A DNA stretch of 64,000 nt from Sulfitobacter faviae (GTDB lineage Bacteria > Pseudomonadota > Alphaproteobacteria > Rhodobacterales > Rhodobacteraceae). The DNA lies in contig NZ_PGFQ01000002.1 of NCBI RefSeq assembly GCF_029870955.1, positions 1 through 64,000 of the forward strand, given 5' to 3'. How positions within the stretch are numbered: the stretch's first letter is position 1; the number at the start of each line of letters is the position of its first letter. Shown here in pieces: positions 5,448 through 50,005 of this stretch. The translations under genes were made by a program, and so were the position numbers. The notes below the pieces were generated by a model. The model had not been told where the DNA came from. It saw nothing but the letters and a program-made list of their open reading frames with translations, and did not search any database.

Positions 5448-5460
5448 GGTTGAGCGGTAA

Positions 5461-9932: not shown

Positions 9933-9958
9933 TTTGAGAAGTCAGGTTTAAACGGATA

Positions 9959-9984: not shown

Positions 9985-10005
9985 CCGTTTGGGGAAGAAG
10001 ATCGA

Positions 10006-10139: not shown

Positions 10140-10181
10140 GGCGCCTGCGGCTTGATTCTGGGCCAGCGGCAAAATCGGCCC

Positions 10182-11587: not shown

Positions 11588-11590
11588 GGG

Positions 11591-13950: not shown

Positions 13951-13967
13951 GATATGCCTCTTTGGTG

Positions 13968-14093
13968 TCAGTCCAGCCGGACGTTTTCACCTGAATAGAC
14001 CTCGGCGGAGGAAAAGCCTATCTCATGCAGCCCGAAATAGGCCACGACGCCGATCACCGCGACGCCCAGAAACCCTGCCAACATGGCTTTCAT
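13968..14093 (-). CDS. Small single-pass membrane protein in the formate dehydrogenase operon (41 aa)
   Basis: Short open frame between the cytochrome b subunit and the regulator. It has a good ribosome-binding site (AAAGGAG, seven bases before the ATG). The product starts MKAMLAGFLGVAVIGVVAYF, one hydrophobic helix of about 17 residues, then a short polar tail ending SGENVRLD. No function is recognised. Its position suggests a small accessory or stabilising peptide of the membrane-bound formate dehydrogenase. Overlapping longer frames upstream have no comparable ribosome-binding site. Confidence 0.65.
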   Translation of the reverse strand: MKAMLAGFLGVAVIGVVAYFGLHEIGFSSAEVYSGENVRLD

Positions 14094-14127
14094 CGCGCGA
14101 CTCCTTTGATTTGAACGCCGCCGCCCG

Positions 14128-15327: not shown

Positions 15328-15394
15328 GGGAAATCCCCCGGCTAGACAGATATGGAGAAAAGGGACGGCCCGATCAGGCCGCCCCCGCAAGCCG

Positions 15395-15988: not shown

Positions 15989-16000
15989 TCTCTTGTCTCC

Positions 16001-18988: not shown

Positions 18989-19089
18989 ATCTTCACTCCC
19001 TATGCGCGGGCTGGCCCCGCCTGAGGTGGCTATTGAACGGCGGGCGTTGTCGCCCTGCCAATTTTCGGGGCCGCGCCCCGGTTATCTGG

Positions 19090-19302
19090 TCAGAACCGCG
19101 CAGCGGCGTAATAGGCGCGCGTGTGTTCGGTGTCTTGGATACGGTCCGACGACAGGTCGGGCGCCTTGGCCGCTTCGGCCTCGGTCCCGGTGGTGGCCAC
19201 GGCGACGGCGGCCAAAGGCGCGGCGCTGCCCGCGAATTTCAGGAAGTCGCGCCGATCTTTGCGAACGGCTGTGTCGGTGGATCCCTCTGGCTTGCGTGTC
19301 AT
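19090..19302 (-). CDS. Small twin-arginine-signal protein of the formate dehydrogenase operon
   Basis: 70 residues consisting mainly of a Tat-like leader: KDRRDFLKFAGSAAPLAAVAV followed by a short tail with EHTRAYYAAARF. Such small Tat-leader proteins regularly sit just upstream of formate dehydrogenase alpha genes in proteobacteria; their role is not settled. It lies 101 bases before the alpha subunit and 65 after the TorD-like chaperone gene. The intervening DNA contains a small GC hairpin (19066-19080). Confidence 0.85.
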   Translation of the reverse strand: MTRKPEGSTDTAVRKDRRDFLKFAGSAAPLAAVAVATTGTEAEAAKAPDLSSDRIQDTEHTRAYYAAARF

Positions 19303-19367
19303 CTTCTCTCTCCTGTTACGTCTTTGGTTCAGGGGCGCGCGGCCCCGCCTGTCTCATCCCGCTCGGT

Positions 19368-19976
19368 CTAGTCGTCTTTGCTCAGCCGAAAGGCTTCGGC
19401 CTCGATCTGCATGAAGGCCCGTCCGATCTTGCCCACCGGAGCGTAGAAGACCGAGTTTTTCGCGCCTTCGAGGTCGGCAAAGAAATGGCCGGCCCAGGGG
19501 GCGATATGCCGGTTAAAGAATGTCTTTTGCTGTGCCACCGTGGCGGGGGCCGAGAAACGGCCTGCGATCATCGCGCCCATCATCTCCATCAATGAGGCGA
19601 TGTTGTCTTCGGGCTCGAACACATTCGCCGCCCGCTCCAAGCCGCGGGCGACCATGTCTTGGCGCAGCGCCGCGAGCGGCTTTTCGTTGAGAAAGCCGGT
19701 GAGGTAGAAGCTGGCATAGGGCAACAGTTCGCCCCGGCCCAAACCGATAAAGAGCCGGTTGAACTCGCTCTCGGCGCCTGCGGGTTTGGTCTTGGCGGCC
19801 AGTTTGGAGAGCGCTTTGAACCCCTGCCCCAATTCGCTGTCGTCGCCCGACAGGGCGGCACATTGATCCAGCAGGATCTGATCCGGCGGGCCGGAAAGGA
19901 TCAGCCCCATAAAGTTGTAGAGGTCCGCGCGCAGGCGGTCTTCTTCGGGCAGGGGCGTTGCGGCCAATTGGGTCAT
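19368..19976 (-). CDS. TorD/DmsD-family redox-enzyme chaperone
   Basis: Cytoplasmic maturation chaperone of 202 residues that probably binds the Tat signal of the catalytic subunit until the cofactor is inserted. Family features are the all-helical composition, SEFNRLFIGLGRGELLPYAS (about 70-90) and the FFNRHIAPWAGHFFADLE region near residues 145-163. It overlaps the preceding DUF3306 gene by four bases (ATGA), so production of both is coupled. Confidence 0.9.
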   Translation of the reverse strand: MTQLAATPLPEEDRLRADLYNFMGLILSGPPDQILLDQCAALSGDDSELGQGFKALSKLAAKTKPAGAESEFNRLFIGLGRGELLPYASFYLTGFLNEKPLAALRQDMVARGLERAANVFEPEDNIASLMEMMGAMIAGRFSAPATVAQQKTFFNRHIAPWAGHFFADLEGAKNSVFYAPVGKIGRAFMQIEAEAFRLSKDD

Positions 19977-20605
19977 GCGCTGCTACCTTCCATGTCCTGT
20001 GCCAGATCGCTGGCAAAGTGAAACCGCATGCGGCGGTGGGTCGGCGCAGGCTGCGCCTCGGCGTCTTCTTCCGGGGCCGCGGCTTGCGCCTGATGGGGCG
20101 CGTCTTGAGCCAGAGCGGTTTCGGTCCGCCGCGGGCCCGGCACGACGACATCATGGGTCGGCGCTAGCGCAGGCGCTTCTGCCTCAGCCATCTCTTCCGG
20201 CGCGTCAGCCTCGGCGGTCAGCACCTCTTCGACCTTCGCGACCATGCCCCGGCCCACTTTGTAGATCGTGTTGACCGGCTTTCCAGCGGTGGCCGCCGCT
20301 GTGTAATCGTCGTCATAGTCGTTCAACCCGTCAAGGCAGGCCAGCACCGGGTTGGTTTTCCAAAAGCTGCGCAGCGCGCGGGTCTTGAGCCGTTGCGGCA
20401 GTTGCGCCTTGAGAAAGGCACGCAGCTGTTCGCCGCTTACCAGATCCTCAGGCGCGGGCAGGTCGAACTCGGCCAAGAGATCATCATCGCTGCGCTCGGC
20501 CAAGGCGGCCTCTTCGGCGGCAGCGGCGCGGGCTTCGTGAAGGCGCGCATCGGCCTCCGCCTCGGCGGCGACGGCGGCGCGGCGCTTTTGCCAGAAACCG
20601 CTCAT
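19973..20605 (-). CDS. DUF3306 protein, formate dehydrogenase-associated
   Basis: 210 residues of unknown function. The start at 20605 overlaps the stop of the DUF3305 gene (ATGA) and gives MSGFWQKRRAAVAAEAEA. The N-terminal half is charged and helical (about 1-45), with a conserved core of LRAFLKAQLPQRLKTRALRSFW and NDYDDDYTAA (about 60-105). The C-terminal half (about 125-195) is low-complexity, rich in Ala, Glu and Pro, and probably disordered. DUF3305/DUF3306 pairs recur beside TorD and formate dehydrogenase genes, so a role in maturation is likely. Confidence 0.85.
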   Translation of the reverse strand: MSGFWQKRRAAVAAEAEADARLHEARAAAAEEAALAERSDDDLLAEFDLPAPEDLVSGEQLRAFLKAQLPQRLKTRALRSFWKTNPVLACLDGLNDYDDDYTAAATAGKPVNTIYKVGRGMVAKVEEVLTAEADAPEEMAEAEAPALAPTHDVVVPGPRRTETALAQDAPHQAQAAAPEEDAEAQPAPTHRRMRFHFASDLAQDMEGSSA

Positions 20606-35491: not shown

Positions 35492-36804
35492 TTACATCTG
35501 ACCCGGCAGGAACAGCACCAGCGCGGGAAAGACGAGCAGCAGGATCAGCCGCAGGATATCGACAAGCCAGAACGGGGTGACCCCGCGAAAGATCGTGCCG
35601 GTGGAAACATCGCCGACCACCCCTTTAAGGACAAAGACATTGAGGCCGACCGGCGGGGTGATCAGGCTGATCTCGGTCACGACGACGACGATGATGCCGA
35701 ACCAGACCGGATCGAAGCCAAGGCTCGTGACCAGCGGAAAGAAGATCGGCACCGTCAGCAGCAGCATCGACATGCTCTCGAAAATGCAGCCGAGCGCGAT
35801 GTAGATTAGAAGGATCAGCCCCATCACCACCCAAGGCCCGAGGTCGAGCGCGGTGACGGTGGCCAGCAGCCCTTCGGGCAGCCCCGCGAGGTTCACGAAG
35901 TTGGAGAAGATCCACGCCCCGATCAACACCGAGAAGAGCGAGGCCGAGGTGAGCGTCGTCTCCTCCAGCACTTCACGCAGGCCCCGCCAGCTGAGCCCGC
36001 CGCGCGCCCAAGCGATGAGGAAGGCCCCCGCCGCCCCCATGCCCGCGGCCTCGGTCGGGGAGAAGGCGAGGTGGATCGGCCAGAAGTCCAAGACCCCATA
36101 GAGCCCGCCGATGACCAGCGCAAAAAGCGCCAGCACCGACCAGACGTGATTGAGCGCGCGCAGCCGCTCTCCCCATGTCGCGCGGGGGCCGGCGGGGCCG
36201 GCTTCGGGGTTCATGGCGACGGAAAAGCGCACCGCGCAGAGATAGAGCAGGATGCCCAATGCCCCCGGCACGATGCCCGCGATGAACAGCGCGCCGATGG
36301 AGGTCTCGGTCAGCAAGCCATAGATCACGAGGATCACCGACGGCGGGATCAGGATCCCGAGCGTGCCCCGGCGGCGATGGAGGCGGTCGAGAGGCTGTCG
36401 GAATAGCCGTATTTGCGCATCTCCGGCATGGCGACCTTGGACATCGTGGCGGCGGTGGCGAGCGATGAGCCGCAGATCGCGGCGAAGCCCCCGCAAGCGA
36501 CGATGGTGGCCATCGCCAGACCGCCCCGGAAGTGGCCCAAAAAGGCGTTAGAGACTTGGTAAAGCTCGCGGCTGATCCCGCCTTTGTTGACGAAAAGCCC
36601 CATCAGGATGAAGAGCGGGATCACCGACAGCCCGTAGTCTTGGCTGGTGTCGATGATCAGCCGCGACACCATGGAGATCGATGCGCGGTAGCTGGTCTCA
36701 TAGACCAGCCCGATCATCCCGACGAGGCCCATGGCAAAGGCAATCGGCAAGCGCAGCAAGACGAGGACGAAAACGGCGGCAAAGCCGATGGCAGAGGCGA
36801 TCAT
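35492..36804 (-). pseudogene. TRAP transporter large permease, DctM family; one frameshift
   Basis: Large TRAP membrane subunit, about 437 codons. The start MIASAIGFAAVFVLVLLRLP overlaps the DctQ stop by ATGA. The first part includes IPLFILMGLFVNKGGISREL and CGSSLATAATMSKVAMPEM. The frame breaks near 36360, after SLSTASIAAG, and continues with GTLGILIPPSVILVIYGLLTE to the end LVFPALVLFLPGQM. The FSPTEAAGMGAAGAF and EISLITPPVGLNVFV signatures are intact. It forms an operon with DctQ and DctP upstream and is divergent from the Rieske dioxygenase operon, beyond marR. Confidence 0.9.
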
Positions 36805-37304
36805 GTGGCAGGGTCCAGAAGTTGCGGCGCAAAGAGGCGCAGAAGCCCGCGCAGGATCAGCACGACAGCGGTGAGATAGGTCATCACCGCGATGAACATG
36901 CCGATGTAGAAGGTCGGGATTTCAAGATATTCGGTCACGTCGCCATAGCTGAGCGCGCGGTAGGCGAGGTCGACGACCCGCCCCGCCGGAAACCACAGCA
37001 TCACCCCGCAGCCCAAAGTCACCAGCCCGTCGCGCCAGCGTTGCAGCCCCCAGTTTTCAAAGGGGCGGTCCAAAAGATCGGCGGCGATATGCCCCTCGCG
37101 GCCCGACAGGACCGGCAGGGCAGAGAAAACGATCAGCGCGATGCCGATACGGATCAGCTCGGTCGCAGCTTCGATGGGCGCGTTGAAGACCGACCGCATG
37201 ATGACATCGGCAAAGGTCAGCACCATCAGCGCGAAGAGCGCGAGAGAGGCCATCGTCATCGGCAGGGCCGAGAGGGCGGTGGTTAGGCGGATTAAAGAGC
37301 GCAT
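36801..37304 (-). CDS. TRAP transporter small permease, DctQ family
   Basis: 167 residues from the ATG at 37304 (MRSLIRLTTALSALPMTMAS), preceded by AGGGAA. Four hydrophobic segments and LSGREGHIAADLLDRPFENWG match DctQ. It sits 58 bases after the DctP stop and overlaps DctM by four bases. The upstream in-frame extension to 37391 is basic and has no ribosome-binding site. Confidence 0.88.
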   Translation of the reverse strand: MRSLIRLTTALSALPMTMASLALFALMVLTFADVIMRSVFNAPIEAATELIRIGIALIVFSALPVLSGREGHIAADLLDRPFENWGLQRWRDGLVTLGCGVMLWFPAGRVVDLAYRALSYGDVTEYLEIPTFYIGMFIAVMTYLTAVVLILRGLLRLFAPQLLDPAT

Positions 37305-37362
37305 GGCGGTTCCCTGGCTGGGGGCCGACCGCGTTTGCGCCCGGCCCCTTTGGCGGTGGGGG

Positions 37363-38381
37363 TTACTGGCTGGCCTTCGCCATTTCCTCACGCATCATCT
37401 CATAGGCGGCCTGTCCATCGACACCGGCCTCGTCGAGCTCTGCGATCACCTTGTCGCGCACCTTGGCGGCCATCTCGGCAAAGCGGGCTTGATCCTCTTC
37501 CGAGGCGGTGACGATCTTGTTGTCGCCCGCGGCCTCGGTCGCCTCACGCGCGTCAACGTCGCTCTGGTCCCAGACGGCACCCATCATGCGGCTCGCCGTC
37601 TCGCCAAAGACTTCGCTGTCGAGCTTTTGCTGCACGTCTTCGGGCAGGCTGTCGAAGGTCTCTTGGCTCATGATGACCGAGAAGGAACCGCGGTAGAAGC
37701 CGCCGGGCATCTCATAGACGTTCTTGGCCACTTCGTTGAGCTTGAAGCTGATCCGCTCGCCCATGTTCATGGCCACGGCATCGGCGGCCCCGGAATCGAG
37801 TGTTTCGTAAACCTTGGGCGCGGGCACCTGAATGCCGACGAGGCCAAGCTCCGCCCCACATCCGCCGAGACACCACCGCCGAGGCGGGTTTTCAGCCCTT
37901 GCAGATCGTCGAGGGTGTTGACCTCTTTGTTGGAGTGGATTTGCCCCGGCCCGTGGGTTGTGAGCGCGATCACCTTCACGCCGCGGTGCTCGTCCAATTC
38001 AGACAGCATCGCCTCATGCAGGCGCCAATGGGCGACCGATGCGGCCTCGGCGTTGCCTTCGTAGCCGGGGATTTCGACCAGTTTCGTGCCGACGAAACGA
38101 CCGGGCGTGTAGCCGTGGAACAGAATGGCGATATCGGCGGCACCGTCCAGCAGCAGGTCCATCTGCGCGGGCGGCGGGGCGAGGCCGTTTTTCAACTCGG
38201 TCTCGATCAGCCCATCGCTGGCCTCGGCCATCATGTCGGTCAATTGGGTGAACATGCCGGTGTTGACCGGGTGGCTTGGCGGCAGCCATGTGGAAATGGT
38301 CAGCGTCTCGGCGGCGAAAGCGCCGGTCGCGGTGCAGAGCGCAAGCGCACTCGTCGTGAGAAACTTGGTGAATTTGGTCAT
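37363..38381 (-). pseudogene. TRAP transporter solute-binding protein, DctP family; one frameshift
   Basis: Periplasmic receptor of about 339 codons. A Sec signal (MTKFTKFLTTSALALCTATGAFA) is followed by ETLTISTWLPPSHPVN. The ligand-binding core includes HGPGQIHSNKEVNTLDDLQG. The frame breaks in a GGGG run near 37848 (minus-strand SADVGA to ELGLVGIQV) and continues with PAPKVYETLDSGAADAV, the conserved DctP signature region. It is first in a DctPQM operon transcribed away from the marR and dioxygenase genes. It may import the substrate of that pathway, for example an aromatic acid, but the ligand is not evident from sequence. Confidence 0.9.
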
Positions 38382-38519: not shown

Positions 38520-39013
38520 TCAGCCGCGAAGATCGCCCGTGTCGTCCAAGGCGGCGAGGAGCGATTTCAGCGCCGGTTTCAACTGCGCCCCTCGTTGCCC
38601 TTCAGCATTTCCATCAAGGCCGCCTCATGGCGGCGCGCTTGCGGCACCAGTTCGGCGGCCAGCGCGCGGCCCGCGTCGGTCAGATACACCCGCACGCGGC
38701 GGCCATCGGCTGGATCGCTGCGGCGAAGCAGCAGGCCGCGTTCTTCCATCTGGGCGATGATCCGCGTGAGGCGGGATTGTTCGGCCAGCGCCCGGCGCGC
38801 GAGTTGCGTGATCATCGCGCCATCAGTGTCCGACAGGCAGGCCAACACGCGCCATTCCGGCACCCGCAGCCCCGCCTTGCGCACCTGCGCGTGGAACTGC
38901 GCGCTCGCCACATCGCTGGCCGCCGCCAACAGATACAGCAGGTAATCCGAGACGAATCCCCCCTCCTGACCCGTCTCCTTTTGGGCGGTTGCGTCGGTCT
39001 TTTGCTGCGTCAC
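38520..39013 (-). CDS. MarR-family transcriptional regulator; frameshift in the last 20 codons
   Basis: About 164 residues. A winged helix-turn-helix core reads PEWRVLACLSDTDGAMITQLARRALAEQSRLTRIIAQMEERGLLLRRSDPADGRRVRVYLT, the standard MarR pattern including the wing Asp-Arg. The frame as given ends at 38579. Restoring one G near 38582 extends it as QLKPALKSLLAALDDTGDLRG to a stop at 38520. It is divergent from the dioxygenase operon and an operator-like palindrome lies in between, so it probably represses that operon and is relieved by a pathway aromatic. Confidence 0.88.
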
Positions 39014-39099
39014 ACCAATTAACCCTTTGATGGAAAGAGGGCTCCTTGCGCCTCGGCCTCTCTAAATGGCGGGCAAATTCGCGCTTGGCAAGAAAACCC

Positions 39100-39132
39100 T
39101 TGACCAAAACTATATGAAAAATCATATTGTTT
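39100..39132 (+). promoter_or_regulatory. Promoter with MarR-type operator for the dioxygenase operon
   Basis: -35 TTGACC (39100-39105), 17-base spacer, -10-like CATATT (39123-39128). Overlapping it is the imperfect palindrome AAAC-T-ATATGA (39107-39117), spacer AAAA, TCATAT-T-GTTT (39122-39132). An operator covering spacer and -10 would block RNA polymerase, consistent with repression by the divergent MarR gene product. Confidence 0.65.
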
Positions 39133-39150
39133 GGCAGGGGAGGACATCAC

Positions 39151-40099
39151 ATGTCGAAGATCAACGCCATCGTGCGCAGGGTCACAGCGCTGACCGATCG
39201 CATCAGCGAATTCGAGATTGCAGCCGCCGACAGCAACCCGTTGCCGCATTGGGACGCCGGGGCGCATGTGCTTTTCGATCTGCCCGATGGCGACAGCCGC
39301 GCCTATTCCCTGATCACCTTCGATCCGATCCCCGAGGCCCCCGAAAGCTACCGCATCGCCGTTCAGCGCGAGCCCGAGGGCAAGGGCGGCTCGACCCATA
39401 TGCACGGGCTGAAACCGGGGGCAGAGATCACCTGCGCCGCGCCAAAGAACGATTTCCCCCTGTCCCCGGACGCGCCCGCCGTGCTGCTGGCGGGGGGATT
39501 GGCATCACGCCGATGATCTCGATGGCGGCGACGCTCAAGGCCGCGGGGCAGGACTTCACCTTTCACTATACGGGCCGCAGCGCGCCCGTTATGGCCTACC
39601 GCGATGCCCTGCGCGAGAGTTTCGGCGAGGCGCTGCATCTGCATTGCGATGATGACGCGACGGCGCTCGACCTCGGCGCGGTGATCGACAGCCTTGGGCC
39701 CCAAGCGCATCTCTATGTCTGCGGCCCCAAAGGGTTGATCGAAGCGACCAAGGCGAAAGCCGAAGCCGCGGGCGTCGCCGCCGAGCGCATCCATTTCGAA
39801 CTCTTCGACGCGCCGCAGGAGCAAGAGGGCGACAGCGCCTTTGAGGTTGAGGTTGCCTCAAGCGGGGAGGTTTTCACCATCCCCCCGGCCAGTCGATCAT
39901 CGACGTGCTGGAGGCGGGCGGTGTCGATGTCATGTACGACTGCCAGCGCGGCGACTGCGGCATCTGCCAATGCGATGTGCTCAGCGGCACCCCCGATCAC
40001 CGCGACGTGGTCCTGTCCGAGGCCGAGCGCGCGGCGGGCAATGTCATGCAAATCTGCGTCAGCCGCGCGAAATCTCCGCGCCTTGTGCTCGACATCTGA
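39151..40099 (+). pseudogene. Dioxygenase reductase, VanB/phthalate-dioxygenase-reductase type; two frameshifts
   Basis: Flavin and [2Fe-2S] reductase that carries electrons from NAD(P)H to the Rieske oxygenase. It starts at ATG 39151 after GGGGAGGA (MSKINAIVRRVTALTDR), about 316 codons. Domains in order are flavin-binding (RAYSLITFDP, about 50-60), NAD-binding (GGIGITPMISM and LYVCGPKGLI) and a C-terminal plant-type ferredoxin with CQRGDCGICQC and a distal Cys. The frame breaks in a GGGG run near 39500 and again near 39890 (IPPGQSIIDVLEAGG). All motifs survive in one frame or another. It is the first gene of the operon. Confidence 0.88.
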
Positions 40100-40110
40100 G
40101 GGAGGAACTC

Positions 40111-41444
40111 ATGGGACGTTACGACAGCCCGGCGGCCTTGGCCGCCCTCGTGCAGCCACATCAGGTGCACCGCGATATCTACACCGACCCAGAGGTGTTC
40201 CAGCAGGAGATGAAGCATCTCTTCGCCAATGCCTGGGTCTTTGTCGGCCATGAAAGCCAGACCCCGAACAAGGGCGATTATTTCAGCACCCATATCGGCA
40301 CCCAGCCCGTCATTCAGGTGCGCCATTCCACGGGCGACATCCATGTCCTGCTGAACCGCTGCCCCCACAAAGGCACCAAGATCGTGATCGACCGGCAGGG
40401 CAACACCGGCAAATTCTTCCGCTGCCCCTATCACGCATGGAGCTTCAAGACCGATGGCTGCCTCTTGGCGATCCCGCTTAAGAAGGGCTACCAGAACACC
40501 GGGCTGGAAGAGACCGACAGCGGCAAGGGGATGCGCAGCGTCGGCGATGTGAAAAACTACCGCGGCTTCATCTTTGCGCGGCTGGCCGAAGAGGGTATGA
40601 GCTTTGAAGAGTTCTTTGGCGAAAGCCTGTCCTCGCTCGACAATATGGTTGACCGCTCCCCCGCCGGACGGCTCGAAGTGGTCGGCCCGCCGCTGCGCTA
40701 CATGCATCATTGCAACTGGAAGATGCTGGTCGAAAACCAGACCGACACCTGTCACCCGATGGTGGCGCATGAAAGCTCTGCCGGGACAGCGGTGAAGCTC
40801 TACGAAGAACTGGGCCTGCCCGAGGACGCGCCTAAACCCCCGCGATGGAGATCATCGCCCCCTTCATGTCGCCTTACGATTTCTTCGAAGGCATGGGCAT
40901 CCGCACATGGCCCAACGGGCATGGGCACACTGGCGTAAACCACTCTATCCACTCGGATTATTCCGCCATCCCCGGTTATTTCGAAGCGCTCTGCGACAGC
41001 TATGGAGAGGAGAAGGCCAAGGCGATCCTCGATGAGAACCGCCACAACACGGTCTATTTCCCCAACATCATGATCAAGGGGCCGATCCAGCAATTGCGGG
41101 TCTTCATCCCCATCGCCGCCGACCGGACCGTGGTGGAAAGCTACATCTACCGCCTCGTCGACGCGCCCGATGAGCTGACCGCACGCACCGCGATGTACAA
41201 CCGCATGATCAACGCGCCCACCTCCATCGTCGGCCATGACGATCTGGAGATGTACGAGCGCGCGCAGGAAGGGCTGATGGTCGACGGGCTGGAATGGGTG
41301 AACATCCAGCGCCTGATCGAAGAGGACGAAGACTTCGAGGTCGAAGCAGTCGAGAACGGCACAACCGAACGCCAGATGCGCAACCAATTCCACGCGTGGG
41401 TCAAGTTCATGACCATGGGCCAAAAGACGGAGGCGGCGGAATGA
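40111..41444 (+). pseudogene. Rieske aromatic-ring-hydroxylating dioxygenase, alpha subunit; one frameshift
   Basis: Catalytic oxygenase subunit, about 444 codons, starting MGRYDSPAALAALVQPH after GGGAGGA. The Rieske [2Fe-2S] motif is NRCPHKG (about 88-94) with FRCPYHAWSF (about 109-118). The mononuclear iron site is in the stretch ENQTDTCHPMVAHES, which has the D-x2-H-x4-H pattern. The frame breaks in a CCCC run near 40845 and resumes at MEIIAPFMSPYDFFEG, through to KFMTMGQKTEAAE. The stop overlaps the beta-subunit ATG. Together with the downstream isatin-hydrolase-like gene I suggest indole-3-acetate as substrate; other aromatic acids are possible. Confidence 0.88.
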
Positions 41445-41919
41445 CTGTGACGCGCGAAAGCCTGATCGACTTCATCTATGGTGAAGTCCGCATGTTGGAC
41501 GAGGGGCGCTATACCGAATGGCTCAACCTCTGGCTGCCGGATGGGCATTATTGGATGCCGTTGGACTATCAGCAAAAAGACCCGATCAACGAGACCTCGT
41601 TGATGTATGAGGATATGTTCATGCTCAAGCTGCGCGTCGAACGTCTGAACGGCGCGCGCACCTTCAGCCAGAAACCCAAAAGCCGCTGCCACCATGTGAT
41701 CCAGCGCCCTTTCGTGGATGAGATGGACACGGAGGCAGGGCGTTTCGTCACGACCACCTTCATGCATTACGTCGAAACCCGTTTGGACAAGCAGCAATTG
41801 CTCGCCGTCACCGCGCGGCATGAGTTGGCGCTGGTCGAGGGCGGCTCCGCATCGCCAACAAACGGGTCGATATCGTGAATTGCGACGCGGCCTTCCGCAA
41901 CATCCAGTTGCTGCCATGA
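41441..41919 (+). CDS. Rieske dioxygenase beta (small) subunit; frameshift near the C terminus
   Basis: About 159 residues, MTVTRESLIDFIYGEVRMLDE, overlapping the alpha stop by ATGA. Conserved positions of the SnoaL-like small subunit are seen: WLNLWLPDGHYWMPLDY, SRCHHVIQRPFV and TARHELALVEGG. The frame shifts near 41850. Restoring one base gives LRIANKRVDIVNCDAAFRNI and a stop at 41917-41919 that overlaps the CoA-ligase start. The presence of a beta subunit indicates an alpha3beta3 oxygenase. Confidence 0.85.
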
Positions 41920-43539
41920 TCGGGGCAGAGACTGGAACGGTCCACGCGGCCTTTGAAGACACCGCCGCGCGGCACCCCGAACGGGGCTTTCTGAATGTCC
42001 TGCCGGAAACGGCGGATATCTACGGCATCGCGGCGGGGGAGGTGAGTTATGCCGAAGCCGCGCGCGAGGTTGCCGCCCTGCGCAAGCGCATTTCGGCGGC
42101 GGGTTATCTGCCCGGCCAACGTGTCATGCTGCTGATGGAGAACCGCCCGGTCTTCTTCCTCTGGTGGCTGGCGCTGAACGGTCTGGGACTGTCGGTCGTG
42201 CCGGTGAACCCCGATCTGCGCGCGGCAGAGCTGAGCTATATGATCGACCATGCCGAGCCGGTCTTGGCCGTGGCGATCCCCGCGCGGGGTGAGGATCTGC
42301 GCGCGGCGGCACGGCAAGCGGGGCGCGACATGCCGGTGATCGCACCGGGGGATCCCTTGCCCGCGCCCGCAACGCGTGAGACCATCGCGACACGGCAAGG
42401 CGGGGCAGAGGAGGCCGAGGCCGCATTGCTCTACACCTCAGGCACCACCGGCCAGCCCAAGGGCTGCATCCTGACGAACACCTATTTCCTCGACGCCGGG
42501 CGGTGGTACGCTGACACCGGCGGGCTTTGCGCCCTCTCGCAAGACGGCGAGCGGATGATCACGCCGCTGCCGATCTTTCACATGAACGCGATGGCCTATT
42601 CCTTCATGGCGATGATCGCCGTGGGCGGCTGCCTGACCGCGCTCGACCGCTTCCACCCCCGCAGCTGGTGGGCCTCGGTCCGGGCCTCGGGGGCGACCTG
42701 TCTGCACTACCTTGGCGTGATGCCCTCGATGCTCATGGGGGCCGAAGCAAGCGAAGCCGACCGCGACCATGCCGTGCGCTTTGGCTTCGGCGCGGGGTGG
42801 ACCCGAAACTGCACGCCGCCTTCGAGGCGCGTTTCGGTTTTCCATTGGTCGAGGCTTGGGCCATGACCGAAACCGGCGCGGGGGCCGTGATCTGCGCCAA
42901 CCGCGAACCGCGCCGCGTGGGCGAAAGCTGCCTCGGCGCGCCCGAAGGGGGCTGGAGGTCCGGCTGCTCGACGATGCCGGGCAAGAGGCCGATCAAGGCG
43001 AATTGCTGGTGCGCCGCGCCGGTGCCGAACCCCGGCGCGGGTTCTTTGCGGGCTACTTCAAAAATGCCGAGGCCACGGATGAGGTTTGGGCGGGCGGTTG
43101 GTTCCACACCGGCGACATCGTGCGCCGCGCGCCGGATGGTGCGATGTATTTCGTCGACCGCAAGAAAAACGTGATCCGCCGCTCGGGCGAGAACATCGCG
43201 GCGGTCGAGGTGGAATCGACCCTGATGCGCCACCCCGCCGTGGCCAGCGCCGCCGTGGCCGCCGTGCCTGACGCGGTGCGCGGGGATGAGGTTTTCGCCT
43301 GTATCGTGCCAAAGGACGCCGGTGCTGACCCTGCCGTCTTGGCCCGTGAAATCACCGAATGGTGCCTGACCCAACTTGCCTATTACAAAGCCCCCGGCTT
43401 CATCGCCTTTGTTGAGGCGCTGCCGCTGACGGCGACGCAGAAACTCCAACGCGGGGTGTTGAAAACGCTGGCCGCCGACCTGCTGGACGATCCCGCCACG
43501 CAAGACCTGCGCGGGCTAAAGAAACGGACGGCGGCATGA
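41916..43539 (+). pseudogene. AMP-forming acyl/aryl-CoA ligase; two frameshifts
   Basis: Adenylate-forming enzyme that makes a CoA thioester of the pathway acid, about 541 codons from ATG 41916 (MIGAETGTVHAAFED). The P-loop is LLYTSGTTGQPKG (about 172-184). Further motifs are AWAMTETGAG, GWFHTGDIVRRAPDGAMYFVDRKKN and the catalytic Lys region PLTATQKLQR. The frame breaks in GGGG runs near 42797 (FGAG to VDPKLHAAF) and near 42950 (APEGG to LEVRLLDD). The stop overlaps the next ATG. In an indole-acetate pathway it would activate the hydroxylated oxindole acetate. Confidence 0.88.
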
Positions 43540-44705
43540 GGCGCAGGGGCTATGACGGCGTCGTCCTCGCGGCGCCCACCTCGGTGCCCTATGCCCGCTA
43601 CAGCAATGAGACCGCCCATTGGTGGATCGCCCGCGCGCTGCGCGCGATGCTGGGCAAGGCGGGGATCGCGCCGGGCGAACTGGACGGGTTCTCGGTCTCC
43701 AGCTTCTCGCTTGCGCCGGACACGCCGGTCGGGCTGACCCAGCATTTGGGGCTCAGCCCGCGTTGGCTTGATACCGTGCCGACGGGCGGGGCCAGCGGGC
43801 TCATCGCGCTGCGCCGCGCGGCGCGGGCGGTGCAGGCGGGCGACGTGGATCTGGTGGCCTGCGTGGCGGGGGACGCGAACCGGATCGACAGCTTTCGCAG
43901 CCTGCTCAGCGGCTTTTCGCGCTTTTCGATGGACGCAACCTTTCCCTATGGTTTCGGCGGCCCGAACGCGAGTTTCGCCCTGCTGATGGACCGCTACATG
44001 CAGGAATACGGCGCCACGCGAGAGGACTTTGGCCAAATTGCCGTGGCGCAACGCGCCAATGCGCTTTGCTATCCCGATGCGCTGATGAAAACCCCGCTGA
44101 CGCTTGACCAATACCTGAATGCGCGCATGATCTCAGACCCCATCGCGCTGTTCGACTGCGTCATGCCCTGCGCCGGGGCCGAGGCGTTTTTGGTCATGCG
44201 CGAGGATGAGGCCCTGCGCCGCGACCTGCCCTTCGCGCGGATCAGCGGCACCATCGAGGGGCACAACGCCTACCCCGAAGACCCGATGCAACTGCGCGGC
44301 GGCTGGGGCGTGGATATCGGTGAGCTCTACGAGATGGCGGGCCATGGGCCGGAGGGGGTCGATCTGCTGCAAACCTATGACGACTACCCAGTGATCTCCA
44401 TGATGCAGTTCGAAGACCTCGGGTTCTGCGCCAAGGGGGAGGGGGCCGCCTTTGCCCGGCGGCGGGATCTGACGATCCACGGCGATTTCCCCCACAACAC
44501 CTCGGGCGGGCAGTTGTCGGTCGGCCAAGCCGGGGCCGCGGGCGGCTATCTGGGGCTGGTCGAGGCGATCCGGCAGGTGACCGGTCAGGCCGAGGGCACA
44601 CAGGTGGCCAACGCCCGGCGGGCCTTGGTCTCGGGCTTTGGTATGATCAACTATGACCGGGGCGTCTGTTCTGCCGCGGCGATCATCGAAGGGGGCGCGC
44701 CATGA
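43536..44705 (+). CDS. Thiolase-like protein lacking the nucleophilic cysteine (possible retro-aldolase, Ltp2-like)
   Basis: 389 residues in one intact frame, thiolase/SCP-x fold. At the place of the active-site Cys (normally C-A-S-G) the sequence is VPTGGASGLIAL (81-92), so classical thiolysis is not expected. The NxxGG motif is present as HNTSGGQLSVGQAG, and the C-terminal loop reads GFGMINYDRGVCSAA with a Tyr at about 373. This loss of Cys, together with a directly following Zn-ribbon/OB-fold gene, recalls the Ltp2-ChsH2 aldolase complexes that split tertiary beta-hydroxyacyl-CoA esters. I infer a retro-aldol cleavage. It overlaps both neighbours by four bases. Confidence 0.85.
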   Translation: MRRRGYDGVVLAAPTSVPYARYSNETAHWWIARALRAMLGKAGIAPGELDGFSVSSFSLAPDTPVGLTQHLGLSPRWLDTVPTGGASGLIALRRAARAVQAGDVDLVACVAGDANRIDSFRSLLSGFSRFSMDATFPYGFGGPNASFALLMDRYMQEYGATREDFGQIAVAQRANALCYPDALMKTPLTLDQYLNARMISDPIALFDCVMPCAGAEAFLVMREDEALRRDLPFARISGTIEGHNAYPEDPMQLRGGWGVDIGELYEMAGHGPEGVDLLQTYDDYPVISMMQFEDLGFCAKGEGAAFARRRDLTIHGDFPHNTSGGQLSVGQAGAAGGYLGLVEAIRQVTGQAEGTQVANARRALVSGFGMINYDRGVCSAAAIIEGGAP

Positions 44706-45947
44706 CTGACCCACTGACCCCGCCCCGAAAGAAGAACCCGCAAAAGCGCAGCAGGGTGCCGACGCTGCCGCCCGCGCAGCGGTCGCGCGCGGCCCTCGGC
44801 CTTGCCATCGCCGCCGGGCGCGGCACCTTCGCCTTGCAACACTGCGCCGATTGTGGGGCGGTGCAATACCCCCCGCGCGATGCCTGCTGCAAATGCCTGT
44901 CCGTCGCGCTGGATTGGCGCGAGACGGACCGCGCGGGCGAGGTCTTGGCCGAAACCACGATCCGCGTCTCGCCCGACCCGTATTTTCGCGAGCGGCTGCC
45001 CTGGCGCATCGGCACGGTGCAACTGGCCGCGGGGCCGGTGGCGGTGTGCCATTTGCATGGCGAAGTCGGGCGCGGTGATGCGGTGCGGCTGGCGTTGAAA
45101 CTGGACCGGGCCGGGCAGGGGGTCATGGTGGCCCTGCCGCGAGAGGGAAGCGAATTGATGCAAGACGATCCAATGCTGCGCGAAATGTCGAGCGATCCGA
45201 AACATCGGCGGGTGTTGATCACCGATGCCCGTTCGCCCTTGGCCCTGGCGCTGGCCCAAGCGCTTTTGAGCGCTGGCGCGGCGGAGATATTCCTGGGCGA
45301 GCCGGAACATTGGCGCCGGTGGGAAGGCCGCGCGGCCTTCGAGGGGATGGAGAGCGTCAGCCTCATGCCGCTTGATGTCACCGATGGGGCCTCCGTCTCG
45401 CGCCTCGCGGCAGAGATCGGTGGCAAGGTCGACATCCTGATCAACACCGCCCAATTCATCCGCCCCGGCGGGGTGCTGGGCAGTGACACGATCTTTGCCC
45501 GCGAGGGGATGGAGACCAATGTGCTGGGCCTGATGCGATTGGCGCAGGGCTTTGGCCCCGCGATGGCCGCGCGCACGGCAGATGGGGTGAACTCGGCGGT
45601 GGCTTGGGTCAATCTCTTGTCGGTCGGGGCCTTGGCACCCGAGGCGGGTTTCGGCGGTTTCGATGCCTCACAAGCGGCGGCGCGGTCGCTCAGCCAGACG
45701 ATGCGGGCGGAATTTGCCGGATCGGGGCTGCGGGTGATGAATGTCTACACCGGCCCCGTTGATGACGAATGGCACCAACCTCTGCCGCCGCCCAAAGTCG
45801 CCCCCGCGCGCTGGCGCGGACAGTGGTTCGCGGGCTGGTCGATGGGTTGGAAGAGGTAGCCTGCGGTGACGTGGCCAAAGATGCGCTGGCCCGCTGGCTG
45901 GACGATCCGGCCTTGATGGAACGCGAAACGCGGGGGGCGGCGCATGA
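44702..45947 (+). CDS. Zn-ribbon/OB-fold (DUF35) protein fused to a degenerate SDR domain; frameshift near the C terminus
   Basis: About 414 codons. The N-terminal part (about 25-150) has a four-cysteine zinc ribbon (Cys48, Cys51, Cys62 or 63, Cys65) followed by an OB-fold with PWRIGTVQLAAGPVAVCHL. The second part (about 165-400) is an SDR-type Rossmann fold: VLITDARSPLALALAQALL, VDILINTAQ and FDASQAAARSLSQTMRAEF. The glycine motif is degraded, and the catalytic YxxxK is FDASQ, so it is unlikely to be an active dehydrogenase. The frame breaks near 45815. The correct frame continues RTVVRGLVDGLEEVACGDVA, and a second indel in the GGGGGG run near 45935 restores a stop at 45947 overlapping the next ATG. 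It probably partners the thiolase-like protein. Confidence 0.8.
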
Positions 45948-46726
45948 GCGATGCAATTACGACACTGGCCGAAGCACTGGCAAGCGGTGCGGCAAAGGTC
46001 GTCGATCTGACCCATCGGCTCGACCCGGACTTCCCGGTCATCGTCCTGCCGCCAGAGTTCGGCCAATGTGCGCGGTTCCGGATGGAGGAGGTTTCGGCCT
46101 ATGATCACCGTGGACCGGCGTGGAAGTGGCATAACCTCACGCTGAACGAACACACCGGCACCCATTTCGATGCGCCCATTCACTGGGTCTCGGGCAAGGA
46201 CGTGGCCCATGGCGCGGTGGATGAAATCCCGCCCGAAGCCTTCATCGGCCCTGTCGTGGTGGTCGACTGCTCGGCGGGGGCGGCGCAGAACGACGACTTT
46301 GAGCTGACGCCCGAGATCATCCGCGATTGGGAGGCCCAGCACGGGCCGATCCCCGCCGACGTTTGGGTGTTGATGCGCACCGATTGGTCGAAACGCAGCG
46401 GCGCGGATTACCTCAACATGCGCGAAGATGGCGCCCATTCGCCCGGCCCCACCCCCGCCGCCATCGAACTGCTGCTAGAGCGCGGCATTCGCGGCTTTGG
46501 CACGGAAACGGTCGGCACCGACGCGGGGCAGGGGATGCATTACGACCCGCCCTTCCCGGCGCATTACCTGCTGCATGGGGCGGGGAAATATGGGCTGCAA
46601 TGCCTGTGCAACCTCGACCAACTGCCGCCCACCGGGGCCATGCTGATCGCACCGCCGCTTAAGATCAAAGGCGGCACCGGCAGCCCCTTGCGGGTACTGG
46701 CGCTGATACCGGGAGAAAGAGTATGA
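45944..46726 (+). CDS. Cyclase-family metal hydrolase, isatin-hydrolase-like
   Basis: 260 residues, PF04199 cyclase fold (kynurenine formamidase/isatin hydrolase family). The manganese or zinc motif HTGTHFDAPIHW (HxGTHxDxPxH) is intact. VLMRTDWSKRSG, HSPGPTPAAIELLL, GTDAGQ, PPFPAHYLLH and APLKIKGGTGSPLRVLALIP closely resemble the isatin hydrolase described from the roseobacter-related Labrenzia, as I recall that sequence. The likely reaction is opening of isatin to isatinate. No signal peptide, so cytoplasmic. It is embedded in the dioxygenase operon with four-base overlaps on both sides. Confidence 0.85.
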   Translation: MSDAITTLAEALASGAAKVVDLTHRLDPDFPVIVLPPEFGQCARFRMEEVSAYDHRGPAWKWHNLTLNEHTGTHFDAPIHWVSGKDVAHGAVDEIPPEAFIGPVVVVDCSAGAAQNDDFELTPEIIRDWEAQHGPIPADVWVLMRTDWSKRSGADYLNMREDGAHSPGPTPAAIELLLERGIRGFGTETVGTDAGQGMHYDPPFPAHYLLHGAGKYGLQCLCNLDQLPPTGAMLIAPPLKIKGGTGSPLRVLALIPGERV

Positions 46727-47447
46727 CCGAATACACCGCCGTCATCACCGGGGCAGCAAGGGCATCGGCGCCGATCTGGCGCAGCGCCTGCTGGAACGCG
46801 GCTATCGCGTGATCTCGATCGCCCGAGGCAAGTCGGAATGGGAGGCGGAAGGCTGCGAGCATATCGAAGCCGACCTGCTCGACCCCGCCTCCGTCGCCGC
46901 CGTTGCTACGGATATCGCCGCGCGCCATGAGGTGACCCATCTGGTGCATAACGCGGGGCTGATCTGGCCCAATCTGGTTGAGGAGGCCAAGCCCGAAGAC
47001 ATCACCGGCCTTGCCCAACTGCACCTCGGTTCGGCCCTGACACTGCTGCAAGCCTTCCTGCCCGCGATGAAAGAAGGCGGCTTTGGCCGGGTGATGTTCA
47101 ACGCCTCTCGCGCCGCCTTGGGTGCGCCGACGCGTACGGCCTATTCAGCCTCTAAAGCGGGGATGATCGGCATGGCGCGCACTTGGGCGCTGGAGCTTGC
47201 GCCGCATGGCATCACCGTCAATGTGGTGGCCCCCGGCCCGGTGCAGACGGATAACTTTTGGGGCATCATCCCGAAAGAAAGCGAACGCGAAGCGGCGCTG
47301 GCCAAGCGCATCCCCGTGGGGCGGTTGGGGCAGGTGGAGGACGTGACCAACGCCTTCCTCTTCTTCTGCGATCCGGCCAATAGTTTCGTCACCGGCCAGA
47401 CGCTCTTCGTCTGCGGCGGGTCGAGCATCGGGACGCTGACGCTCTGA
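46723..47447 (+). pseudogene. SDR-family NAD(P)-dependent oxidoreductase; frameshift near the N terminus
   Basis: Short-chain dehydrogenase of about 241 codons, ATG 46723 overlapping the cyclase stop. The frame breaks in the GGGG run near 46752. Restoring one G gives the cofactor motif TGGSKGIGADLAQRL and continues through HNAGLIWP, the catalytic Ser region NASRAALG and intact YSASK, to FVTGQTLFVCGGSSIG. Unlike the SDR-like domain of the upstream fusion, this one has all catalytic residues. Last gene before the convergent dehydrogenase gene. The substrate is unknown, probably an alcohol or ketone of the same pathway. Confidence 0.85.
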
Positions 47448-47457
47448 CCCCTCAAGC

Positions 47458-48330
47458 TTAACCCTTGCGGAAATGTTGCACCAATTCAGGGACATAGGCA
47501 TCGCCCGCGCCCTTTTCGACGACTTGGGATAGGGCGCGATAGACCCCATCGGCAATCTCGACCTGCGCGCCCGCTTGGGCGGACATCTGGCGGTAATAGT
47601 CGAAATCCTTCAGCGCATTGCTGATCGCGAAGGGCAGCGCCTCGCGGTCGCCGCTGGTGATGAAGGGCGACAGCCGATCAAGCGCGACACTGGCACCGCC
47701 GCCGCCCGCCAAGACATCCACGAAACTCTGCGGATCGATCCCCGCATCTGCCGATTGCGCAGCCGCCTCGGCCAGCAGGGACATGAAGCCGACCGAGACA
47801 TAGTTGTGCAGCAGTTTCAGCCGATGGCCCGCGCTGACCGCGCCCACATGTTTGACCTCTTCGGTGAAGGCGGCGAGCACCGGAGAGACCTTTTCGACCG
47901 TGGCCGCGTCACCGCCGACGAGCAGGTTCAGCTTGCCCTCATGGGCAAACTGCGCGGTGCGGGTCATCGGCGCATCGACAAAATCGCCCCCCGCCGCCTT
48001 GACCGCCTCGGCCATCTTCAACGTCGAGGCGGGCAGGGAGGTCGAGCAATCGACGACCACAGCACCCGGCTTCAACCCCACGATGACGCCGCCCTCTCCG
48101 GTCAGGATCCCTTCGACCTGCGGCGAGCCGGTAACGCAGAGGATGATCACGTCGGATGCGGCCGCCAGATCGCTCAGACTGTCAAAGGCGGTGGCCCCCA
48201 GCCCGTCCAACTCATCGGTCGGCTGGTTGCCGGGGTGGTCGAAATAGCCAAGCGCAAAACCCCCGCGCCGCATCACGTTGCGGGCAATTCCGTGGCCCAT
48301 CAGGCCGACACCGATCATACCGATTTTCAT
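47458..48330 (-). CDS. 3-hydroxyisobutyrate dehydrogenase-family (beta-hydroxyacid) dehydrogenase
   Basis: 290 residues from the ATG at 48330 (AGGAAAA upstream; MKIGMIGVGLMGHGIARNVM). An N-terminal Rossmann domain with GxGxxG is followed by the substrate motif VDAPMTRTAQFAHEGKLNLLVGG and the catalytic Lys in GHRLKLLHNYVS. The frame is open further upstream but without a suitable start. It oxidises or reduces a 2- or 3-hydroxyacid such as tartronate semialdehyde or 3-hydroxyisobutyrate; the exact substrate is not evident. It is the only minus-strand gene within the catabolic island between the dioxygenase operon and the aldehyde dehydrogenase. Confidence 0.9.
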   Translation of the reverse strand: MKIGMIGVGLMGHGIARNVMRRGGFALGYFDHPGNQPTDELDGLGATAFDSLSDLAAASDVIILCVTGSPQVEGILTGEGGVIVGLKPGAVVVDCSTSLPASTLKMAEAVKAAGGDFVDAPMTRTAQFAHEGKLNLLVGGDAATVEKVSPVLAAFTEEVKHVGAVSAGHRLKLLHNYVSVGFMSLLAEAAAQSADAGIDPQSFVDVLAGGGGASVALDRLSPFITSGDREALPFAISNALKDFDYYRQMSAQAGAQVEIADGVYRALSQVVEKGAGDAYVPELVQHFRKG

Positions 48331-48509
48331 GGATTTTCCTTCGCTTGCCACCGCCACACTTGCGGCGGTTCCCTTGGGGAAAGTTCTAGCGATCCGCCCG
48401 GCACGGTGCAACGCGGCAGGGCCGGATTTTCTTGGTCAAACAGGGCTTTGTATATTTGAAACCGACAATTCGATTGATAGGAATGGCGCATTAATGGAAT
48501 GAGGCTGAA

Positions 48510-50005
48510 ATGACTTTGACCCGCGACCCCCACCAGATTGCCGAAACGCTTTACCACGGGCAGTTCTGCCCGATGTTCATCGACGGTCAGGACGTGCCCG
48601 CGTACTCCGGCGCGGTGATCGAGGTGAAAGATCCCGCCTCTGGCCGCAAGCTGGCGGAAGTGCCGCGCGGCGGGGCGCGGGATGTCGATCTGGCCGTGGA
48701 TGCCGCGCGCCGGGCCTTCGAAGGCGTCTGGTCCACCTTCACCCCCTACGACCGGCAGGAGGTGCTGTTGCGCATCGCCGATGTGATGGAGCGAGATTGG
48801 GAGAAGCTCTGTGTCTCCGACACCGCCGACATGGGGCTGCCGCTGGCACGGACGCTCGGGAATAAGCGGCGGGTGATCGGGATGCTGCGCTTCTACGCAG
48901 GTCAGGCGGTGGCGCTGCATGGTGACGTGATCGAAAACTCGATCTCGCAGTCTATGCTGTCCTTCACCACCCGCGAGCCGGTCGGCGTGGTGGGCGCGAT
49001 CATCCCGTGGAACGCCCCGACCGCCGCCTCGATCTGGAAAATCGCCCCGGCGCTGGCCACCGGCTGCACCGTGGTTCTGAAACCCTCCGAAGATGCGCCG
49101 CTGACGCCCTTGATGATCGCGCGGCTAATGCAAGAGGCGGGCGTGCCAGATGGCGTGGTCAATGTGGTCACCGGCACGGGCCGCGAGGCCGGGGCGCGGC
49201 TGGCCGAGCATCCGGACGTGAACAAGGTGGTCTTCACCGGCTCGACCGCGACCGGCAAGACCATCGCCCGGGCCGGGGTGGAGAACCTCAAGCGGATCAC
49301 GTTGGAACTTGGGGGCAAGTCGCCGCTGATCATCTGCAAGGATGCCGACCTCGACAAGGCGGTGCCGGTGGCGGCGATGGCGGTCTATGCGCATTCGGGC
49401 CAGATCTGCATCGCGGGCTCGCGGCTCTTCGTGGCGCGGGAGATTCAGGATGAGTTTATCGAGAAGCTCACCGCCTTCGCGCGGGGGCTGAGGATCGGGC
49501 ATGGCCTTGACGAAGGCACCGATCTCGGCCCGCTCATCAATGCCGTGCAGACCGAGAAGGTCGAAGACTATATCGCCAAGGGCGAGGCCGAGGGCGCGCG
49601 GCTGGTCACCGGCGGTGGTCGGCCCGAGGGGGCGGGCTACGCGGGCGGCAACTTCCTCGAACCGGTGATCTTTGCCGATGTGAAAGACGAGATGACCATC
49701 GCGCGGGAGGAGATTTTCGGCCCCGTGATCTCGGTCCTGCCCTTCGACACGATGGAGGAGGTCGTGACCCGCGCCAATGCCACGCCCTACGGGCTGGCGG
49801 CGGGATCTTCACCCGCGATCTCGGGGTGGCGCATCGGTCGGTGAAGAAGCTGAAGGCCGGATCGGTCTGGGTGAACATGTACCACGCGATCGACCCGGCG
49901 GTGCCCTTTGGCGGGCTGAAGATGTCGGGCTACGGCAAGGAGGGTGGCGTGGAGCACCTGCAGGCGTATCTGGATACCAAGGCGGTTTGGATTCAGACGG
50001 AGTGA
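48510..50005 (+). pseudogene. Aldehyde dehydrogenase; frameshift near the C terminus
   Basis: NAD(P)-dependent aldehyde dehydrogenase, about 498 codons (MTLTRDPHQIAETLYHG). Visible motifs: GAIIPWNAPT, FTGSTATGKTIA, the catalytic Glu in LELGGKSPLII, and the nucleophilic Cys in GQICIAGSRLF. The frame breaks in a GGG run near 49802. One restored base gives GIFTRDLGVAHRSVKKL, then PFGGLKMSGYGKEGG and a stop at 50005. It is divergent from the beta-hydroxyacid dehydrogenase. A role such as oxidation of an arylacetaldehyde to the acid would fit the island but is inference. Confidence 0.9.

Follow-up and report, generated by a model that had tools for sequence, protein, structure and literature searches.

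Among described systems, the closest to the one treated here is the iad operon of Variovorax paradoxus CL14 (iadC-K2), for which conversion of indole-3-acetate (IAA) to anthranilate, an IadR-group MarR regulator and the substrate pocket of the oxygenase IadD have been reported (PMC9613470, PMC10374108, PMC12633357). Ruegeria pomeroyi, likewise a marine roseobacter, has a regulator that binds IAA and is among the strains shown to degrade it (PMC9613470); we find a complete iadC-J set on its DSS-3 megaplasmid (L010). Two enzyme families studied in other settings also bear on this pathway. One is isatin hydrolase A of Roseibium (Labrenzia) aggregatum (5NNB/5NNA), for which structure, isatinate complex, kinetics and Mn-dependent isatin hydrolysis are available, and which was studied as an enzyme, the words 'operon' and 'gene cluster' being absent from the available text of the account (PMC6117287). 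The other comprises the steroid aldolases Ltp2-ChsH2(DUF35) (6OK1) and Sal-Shy(DUF35) (9MYR), in which a thiolase fold without the catalytic cysteine and a tethered DUF35 partner act on a beta-hydroxyacyl-CoA substrate. Here we describe an iad operon at 38520-50005 of the first 64 kb (hereafter the window) of contig C2 in a Sulfitobacter faviae genome (3.83 Mb, five contigs).

The gene content, order and strands read in this region by the first-pass annotation, which was made from the letters alone, all hold, as does its core interpretation as an iad pathway. The regulator gene iadR diverges from iadCDEFGHIJ in the order of Variovorax, and the locus belongs to an iad operon kind already known. 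With CL14 it shares the C-J order, the IadR-group MarR, the IadD pocket and probably the chemistry from IAA to anthranilate, but it has a TRAP transporter beside IadR in place of the ABC binding protein IadK2 found in the CL14 gene region, and the IadD proteins are 57% identical. IadD of the DSS-3 locus is only 61% identical, whereas strain SZCCDBG043 (L087) has the Sulfitobacter-type layout with TRAP and IadR. We put at roughly 0.8 the probability that this IAA-inducible operon converts IAA to isatinate, and onward to anthranilate, with release of acetyl-CoA. Rather likely as well, if somewhat less so, is a revision that would apply across all iad bacteria, Variovorax included: IadG:IadH would be a new type of retro-aldolase with isatin as its product, IadI an isatin hydrolase, the DUF35 domain would ride on a dehydrogenase domain that is conserved yet dead (perhaps a platform for docking or channelling, with IadJ as a possible partner), and CDE+J and G-H-I would be separable, shuffled modules. 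The locus is known in kind, and its sequences suggest a mechanistic reassignment of IadG, IadH and IadI that goes beyond the published iad accounts found.

Since most iad genes of the window are frameshifted (see below), the analysis is based on intact relatives, such as locus L001, and on unbroken pieces. Relatives came from a genome scan in which the best 80 of 250 were kept, a set that leans to close relatives and in which several loci end at contig ends; in a separate candidate search, scoring covered the 7,999 candidates with the most words in common, of which the top 120 were listed. Counts are of loci, not species: L094-L098 overlap L104-L107, L100 overlaps L103, and L007 is the window itself. 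The genes iadC-J stand in canonical order in 56/80 scan loci, and such recurrence of all eight genes in one fixed order argues against a chance arrangement.

Predicted roles of IadG, IadH and IadI

IadG (43536..44705, plus strand, uninterrupted) is a thiolase-fold protein (PF22691) whose sequence matches in the PDB are 9myr (Sal), 4u4e and 6ok1 (Ltp2), likewise for the Variovorax-type IadG. An AlphaFold model of the L014 orthologue (pLDDT 81, pTM 0.88) has the Sal-Shy(DUF35) and Ltp2-ChsH2(DUF35) aldolases as its nearest folds, with true thiolases close behind. Residues were counted in proteins covering at least 80% of the query, with IadJ below 45% and IadD below 56% identity dropped: the position aligned to the thiolase cysteine of 7yvy and BbsB is glycine in 77/77 IadG proteins, i.e. 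IadG lacks the nucleophilic cysteine of a ketothiolase. Taken with IadH, it shows the features of the Ltp2 and Sal aldolases, namely a thiolase fold, no cysteine and a DUF35 partner encoded next door.

That partner, iadH (44702..45947, plus strand, frameshifted), had been called a DUF35 protein, which is right as far as it goes: the protein is a fusion of a zf-ChsH2 zinc ribbon, a DUF35 OB fold and a short-chain dehydrogenase/reductase (SDR) domain. Classical SDR dehydrogenases carry the motifs TGxxxGxG and YxxxK. The SDR part of IadH departs from both: YxxxK is found in 0/76 proteins (8 keep only the Tyr, 1 only the Lys), and Asp takes the place of the second motif Gly in 75/76. The Variovorax-type IadH of L103 (where IadD shares 94.4% identity with 7yls of Variovorax) has the same architecture, with the Lys kept and Phe for Tyr. 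Whereas the DUF35 domain of the steroid aldolases is tethered to a MaoC hydratase domain, here it is tethered to a degenerate SDR, and the predicted substrate is an oxindole rather than a steroid.

When the general chemistry of retro-aldol and thiolase cleavage is applied to this oxindole, dioxindole-3-acetyl-CoA is a tertiary beta-hydroxyacyl-CoA from which no beta-keto ester can form, so that a thiolase cannot cut it. Tertiary-alcohol substrates of this type are cleaved by a steroid aldolase and not by a thiolase (PMC11321319). We infer that IadG:IadH form a retro-aldolase complex releasing isatin and acetyl-CoA; cleavage of this type by a cysteine-less thiolase homologue had already been proposed in the first pass, and both sequence and fold support it. 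Such a complex would explain the need for both iadG and iadH without calling IadH a dehydrogenase. The word 'aldolase' does not occur in the available text of two Variovorax papers (PMC12633357, PMC10374108). A separate case is L009 (Sulfitobacter sp. THAF37), where the stretch 9529-11129, adjoining a complete iadC-J, encodes another IadG-like protein (63%) and, after it, a DUF35 protein that stands alone and lacks the SDR part.

The product of iadI (45944..46726, plus strand, uninterrupted) scores 488 bits against isatin hydrolase A 5nnb, bearing out the isatin-hydrolase-like cyclase of the initial reading. Roseibium aggregatum IAM 12614 (L068) has the same operon order, and its IadI is identical over 257/257 residues to the crystallised isatin hydrolase A 5NNB, which in turn is 79% identical to IadI of L001; the crystallised enzyme is thus the IadI of its own species' iad operon. 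A GLQC signature is present in 74/74 IadI orthologues, the Variovorax-type L103 among them, and the HxG[T/A]HxDxPxH metal motif of isatin hydrolase A in 71/71 aligned proteins. The GLQC/GLAS signature has been tied to isatin hydrolase activity (PMC6117287), while Variovorax IadI was left as a possible broad-specificity amidase (PMC12633357). On these sequence features, IadI is assigned as an isatin hydrolase, which would convert isatin to isatinate.

The oxygenase, IadJ and the regulator

The oxygenase genes follow one another on the plus strand, each frameshifted in the window: iadC (39151..40099), a reductase with NAD-binding and 2Fe-2S domains by Pfam on the L001 orthologue, iadD (40111..41444), the Rieske alpha subunit, and iadE (41441..41919), the beta subunit. 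Aligned to characterised proteins, IadD of L001 has Variovorax IadD as its nearest solved homologue (563 bits to 9o71, 562 bits and 56.6% identity to 7yls), the next family reaching 143 bits; the window's own first iadD piece also matches 7yls best. The outcome named in the first pass as refuting its reading, a nearest characterised homologue with another aromatic acid as substrate, was thus not observed. IadE of L001 matches 7yls_A with 156 bits (next match 40 bits). Thirteen of 14 published pocket and metal residues are conserved in L001 IadD (8/9 of the IAA pocket and all metal ligands), and Phe251 and Lys322 are kept in 100/100 iadD proteins of at least 56% identity, whereas Asn and His replace them in two Rieske homologues of 42-43% identity. 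The latter two, from Variovorax 2u118 (L012) and plasmid pCAR1.3 (L013), come with a reductase and beta subunit, with no iadF-I found nearby, and probably act on a different substrate.

The step assigned to the Rieske oxygenase at the outset, formation of dioxindole-acetate, does not hold as stated: the oxygenase probably does not complete it alone, as isotope work and genetics in Variovorax place IadJ, the SDR given no role in the first pass, directly after IadCDE (PMC12633357), and gene linkage for the most part points the same way. IadJ (46723..47447, plus strand, PF13561, frameshifted) retains the Tyr and Lys of YxxxK and the three motif Gly in 85/85 proteins of at least 45% identity, as in classical SDR dehydrogenases. 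J lies directly after E or F in 11/80 scan loci and in 3/8 further loci (L008, L105, L106), the G-H-I genes there being inverted, placed upstream or elsewhere, or missing from the stretch. IadJ would thus be a working SDR, usually linked with the oxygenase, which mostly agrees with the published order. The remaining gene of this part, iadF (41916..43539, plus strand, frameshifted), encodes an AMP-forming acyl-CoA ligase (PF00501 and PF13193 in L001).

IadR (38520..39013, minus strand, frameshifted near its end) is a MarR-family regulator; in L001 its best PDB match is 3CDH, a MarR of R. pomeroyi, at 158 bits, followed by 7kfo (Variovorax MarR_73) at 73 bits. The former binds IAA with a KD of 0.237 uM (PMC9613470). 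In an alignment inspected by eye, five of the seven IAA contacts of MarR_73 are identical in IadR (Tyr15, Ser28, His32, Trp45 and Arg46), among them all three carboxylate contacts; IadR, as judged from these residues, is a member of the IAA-binding MarR group.

Operator, transport and neighbouring genes

The motif ATGAN4TCAT occurs in 49/52 of the gaps between divergent IadR and IadC genes, and its end lies 22-48 bp, mostly 24-26 bp, upstream of iadC. Of its 57 occurrences in 1.06 Mb, 51 fall inside these gaps, which total 7.1 kb, and shuffled sequence is expected to yield 0.15 gaps with it; the shuffles preserve base composition only, and the motif was chosen after inspecting the palindromes. 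Palindrome scoring alone is a weaker test (19/52 gaps above all 20 shuffles) than the fixed motif with its position. In the window the site is ATATGAAAAATCATAT at 39112..39127, the sole perfect copy of ATATGAN4TCATAT in the 3.83 Mb genome, and a probable IadR operator; situated between iadR and iadC, it could serve both transcripts. No copy of the motif appears in the Variovorax-type, Azospirillum or DSS-3 megaplasmid loci. A wider IadR regulon was considered and set aside, there being no second perfect site in the genome (one-mismatch sites lay outside the scope).

A TRAP transporter (large permease, small permease and substrate-binding protein; 35492..38381, minus strand; identified from the annotation of the OXR-9 plasmid, which is 97% identical) lies downstream of iadR on the same strand. 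Its large permease and binding protein, both at 60% identity or more, stand beside iad in 37/80 scan loci; other iad loci carry other TRAP systems. In a sample of 295 genomes (294 genera) of the family, with iadD scored at E <= 1e-120 and IadG at 1e-110, 7/9 genomes with the binding protein at 60% also have iadD (Fisher p 5.9e-7), a cut set after the list was viewed; at the looser E <= 1e-90 the count is 10/31 (p 6e-5). We found no paper linking R. pomeroyi, indole-3-acetate and a TRAP transporter. The upstream system is the best importer candidate for IAA and probably core to the system. Of the earlier proposal that both flanking TRAP systems supply the acid, the upstream half is therefore probable, while the downstream large permease recurs in only 2/80 scan loci, both Sulfitobacter.

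In L001 the genes run, leftward, as M42 peptidase, TRAP large permease, small permease and binding protein, and IadR, then rightward as iadC to iadJ; beyond iadJ lie a 6PGDH-like oxidoreductase (leftward), an aldehyde dehydrogenase (rightward) and a further TRAP system, again leftward. The oxidoreductase (47458..48330, minus strand; 2-hydroxy-3-oxopropionate reductase / HIBADH family, the L001 match lying below curated cut-offs) is found in 2/80 scan loci, and so is the aldehyde dehydrogenase (48510..50005, plus strand, PF00171, frameshifted), again both Sulfitobacter; these two genes and the downstream TRAP system are not core. The suggestion that the aldehyde dehydrogenase makes IAA from indole-acetaldehyde therefore has no linkage support, and it was set aside both as an IAA source and for the anthranilate-forming step, being without conservation beside the operon; a role in Sulfitobacter alone is possible. 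Likewise rejected was an auxin-conjugate hydrolase, the 'M20' gene beyond the upstream TRAP being an M42 aminopeptidase. IadK2 is not in the gene region, where J is followed by the 6PGDH-like protein, the aldehyde dehydrogenase and the TRAP system; its absence is not treated as disqualifying, because IadK2 was reported as non-essential in Variovorax (PMC12633357).

Proposed pathway and alternatives

In the absence of IAA, IadR bound to the palindrome would repress iadC-J and probably its own IadR-TRAP transcript, and binding of IAA would release it. With IAA probably imported by the TRAP system, IadC would pass electrons to IadDE, which would oxidise the indole 2,3 bond; IadJ would then dehydrogenate the hydrated product to dioxindole-3-acetate, IadF form its CoA thioester, and IadG, bound to the DUF35 domain of IadH, split this by a retro-aldol reaction into isatin and acetyl-CoA. 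IadI would open isatin to isatinate, and a step without an assigned gene would lead on to anthranilate. The gene identities, order, residues, linkage and operator-like motif were observed here; IAA binding by IadR, oxidation by CDE, the place of J and the anthranilate product are taken from the Variovorax and R. pomeroyi papers (PMC9613470, PMC10374108, PMC12633357). The G:H aldolase, the TRAP import, the function of the operator and the passage from isatinate to anthranilate are the predicted parts of the scheme.

As to the fate of anthranilate, a cluster on the host chromosome encodes a kynureninase and an NF006101 protein over their cut-offs, a tryptophan 2,3-dioxygenase and a benzoate-CoA-ligase-family protein under theirs, and an SDR, an enoyl-CoA hydratase and an acyl-CoA dehydrogenase; it resembles the cluster beside the Azospirillum iad genes. 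The cluster is a plausible anthranilate sink; proteins like NF006101 include 2-aminobenzoyl-CoA monooxygenase/reductase. Anthranilate 1,2-dioxygenase gave no match over cut-off in the host.

Several points weigh against the proposed pathway. In Variovorax mutants without iadI it is C8H7NO2, the formula of dioxindole, that accumulates and not isatin, and the authors inferred that the side chain is lost reductively, IadH serving as a dehydrogenase (PMC12633357); our scheme would need another reductase, from isatin to dioxindole, to explain C8H7NO2. The SDR part of an IadH model (pLDDT 86) resembles the NADP-bound SDR 5u4s, so that lost cofactor binding is argued from the motifs. DUF35 was apparently unimportant for the aldolase in one paper (PMC11321319) yet indispensable in another (PMC12502768), a conflict that bears on why iadH is essential. 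IadJ is absent within the stretch in 10/80 scan loci, for some of which contig ends account, and L020, L023 and L065, with long flanks, lack F-I as well as J. In the IAA pocket Leu211 is Gln in L001 and likewise in 98/100 iadD proteins, two of the seven IadR contacts differ (Ala18 and Val65), the DSS-3 megaplasmid locus has no IadR in the stretch examined, and the window's own iad copy is frameshifted.

The first of these points favours the published model, in which IadG as ketothiolase and IadH as alcohol dehydrogenase remove the acetyl chain reductively to give dioxindole, with IadI acting afterwards as a broad amidase. We regard this model as improbable, though of the alternatives it survives best: it is at odds with the invariant Gly of IadG and the missing YxxxK of IadH, in the Variovorax-like L103 as elsewhere, and with an IadI orthologue that is the crystallised isatin hydrolase. 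The reported C8H7NO3, moreover, is by our formula check that of isatinate, the product of isatin hydrolase.

A second alternative is that the iad operon of this strain is decaying into pseudogenes. In the deposited window IadG and IadI are the only uninterrupted members of the nine (R, C-J); the other seven (R, C, D, E, F, H and J) are frameshifted, and so are the aldehyde dehydrogenase and, in the upstream TRAP, the large permease and the binding protein. Compared with S. faviae OXR-9 over 36.0-52.6 kb, however, 14/14 indels are single bases absent from the window, 13 of them in G/C runs. Extended to 61.7 kb, the comparison counts 33 single-base deletions, 25 of them in G/C runs of at least 4, against 13 single-base insertions, just one of which is in a run of that kind. 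As controls, a single deletion and a single insertion separate two other S. faviae plasmids (96.2% identity) over 17.6 kb, and a Sulfitobacter pair further apart (89.9%) shows 27 deletions and 40 insertions of one base over 20.4 kb, of which G/C runs hold only 2 + 2. Deletions in G/C runs are densest at 32-48 kb, which speaks for decay, but the runs themselves are most numerous there. Another contig of the same assembly, C5, is 99.8% identical over 18 kb (60001-78000) to two named plasmids, with three one-base deletions (two in G/C runs of at least 4) and one one-base insertion, the signature of the window at a lower rate. Four Sulfitobacter records compared are annotated with full-length iad genes. 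With deletions so one-sided and confined so largely to G/C runs, S. faviae controls nearly free of indels and relatives with full-length genes, the frameshifts are most likely sequencing error, and decay is a doubtful explanation, trailing slightly behind the published model. Beyond the operon, the G/C homopolymer deletions in the window and contig C5 suggest uncorrected read errors in the assembly that break predicted proteins.

A third alternative, with IAA as a side substrate and some other indolic or aromatic acid as the main one, might be suggested by Leu211Gln, the two changed IadR contacts and the different gene sets around the Azospirillum and Pantoea IadD relatives. It is very unlikely: for regulator and oxygenase alike the best matches are IAA-binding proteins and most IAA contacts are retained, in IadR all three to the carboxylate, and R. 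pomeroyi degrades IAA (PMC9613470).

Given R. pomeroyi, the first-pass view of this locus as linking a marine bacterium to algal auxin does not amount to a new kind of degrader. A survey of IAA degraders, whose main text contains neither 'Sulfitobacter' nor 'isatin', reported iad-like operons in 2/304 marine metagenome-assembled genomes (PMC11630574); in the available text of a study of S. mediterraneus and IAA, iad comes up only through IadK2 (PMC12114110). As IAA crosstalk between algae and bacteria has been described (PMC10805672), it is a testable question whether marine partner bacteria destroy the algal IAA signal. The reassignment has a wider bearing, since root bacteria are now being equipped with iad cassettes (PMC12633357) according to a scheme whose names for IadG, IadH and IadI may be wrong. 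It would also join the iad and isatin hydrolase literatures: among the matches listed, 'isatin hydrolase' and 'indole-3-acetic acid' co-occur in an enzyme paper and an indole review, and 'isatin hydrolase' is absent from the 15 papers listed of 570 that matched a further literature search.

Replicon, distribution and modular linkage

The replicon is a repABC plasmid of a Sulfitobacter faviae-like strain; on the S. faviae OXR-9 plasmid the iad operon lies near the repABC genes. The closest public plasmids are S. faviae plasmids of 209-211 kb, with 95-97% identity over 99-100% of 38.5-50.1 kb. At least 80% of that stretch is covered by 13 plasmid records, all Sulfitobacter, and iadD is found in 14 Sulfitobacter plasmid records, that of strain D7 included.

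In the family sample, iadD is present in 26/295 genomes; IadG is found in 26/26 of these (in 21 within 10 kb) versus 1/269 without iadD. In the phylum, iadD was found in 7/398 sampled genomes. G-H-I are contiguous in 62/62 scan loci holding all three. In the Variovorax-type L103, iadC was not found in the stretch available and the remaining order is as in Variovorax.

Some loci show other combinations. L108 (genome G638) has an iadG-H-I block at 7785-10984 with no iadD match, perhaps an isatin-releasing module used with another oxidation system. In L011 (Pantoea sp. Nvir, 5289-14083) and L116 (Pantoea agglomerans 33.1), an iadCDE-like oxygenase (IadD 55%) occurs without F-J; the row includes a flavin amine oxidoreductase, an amidase resembling indoleacetamide hydrolase (427 bits, cut-off 532) and a tryptophan permease-like transporter (446 bits, cut-off 515), and looks like a route from tryptophan through IAA to oxidised IAA in one operon. 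L008 (Azospirillum thermophilum, 4363-20409) combines a MarR, an indolepyruvate ferredoxin oxidoreductase, iadCDE, F, J and a salicylyl-CoA-hydroxylase-like cluster, without G-H-I, and may represent a route from indolepyruvate through IAA to a CoA-bound aromatic.

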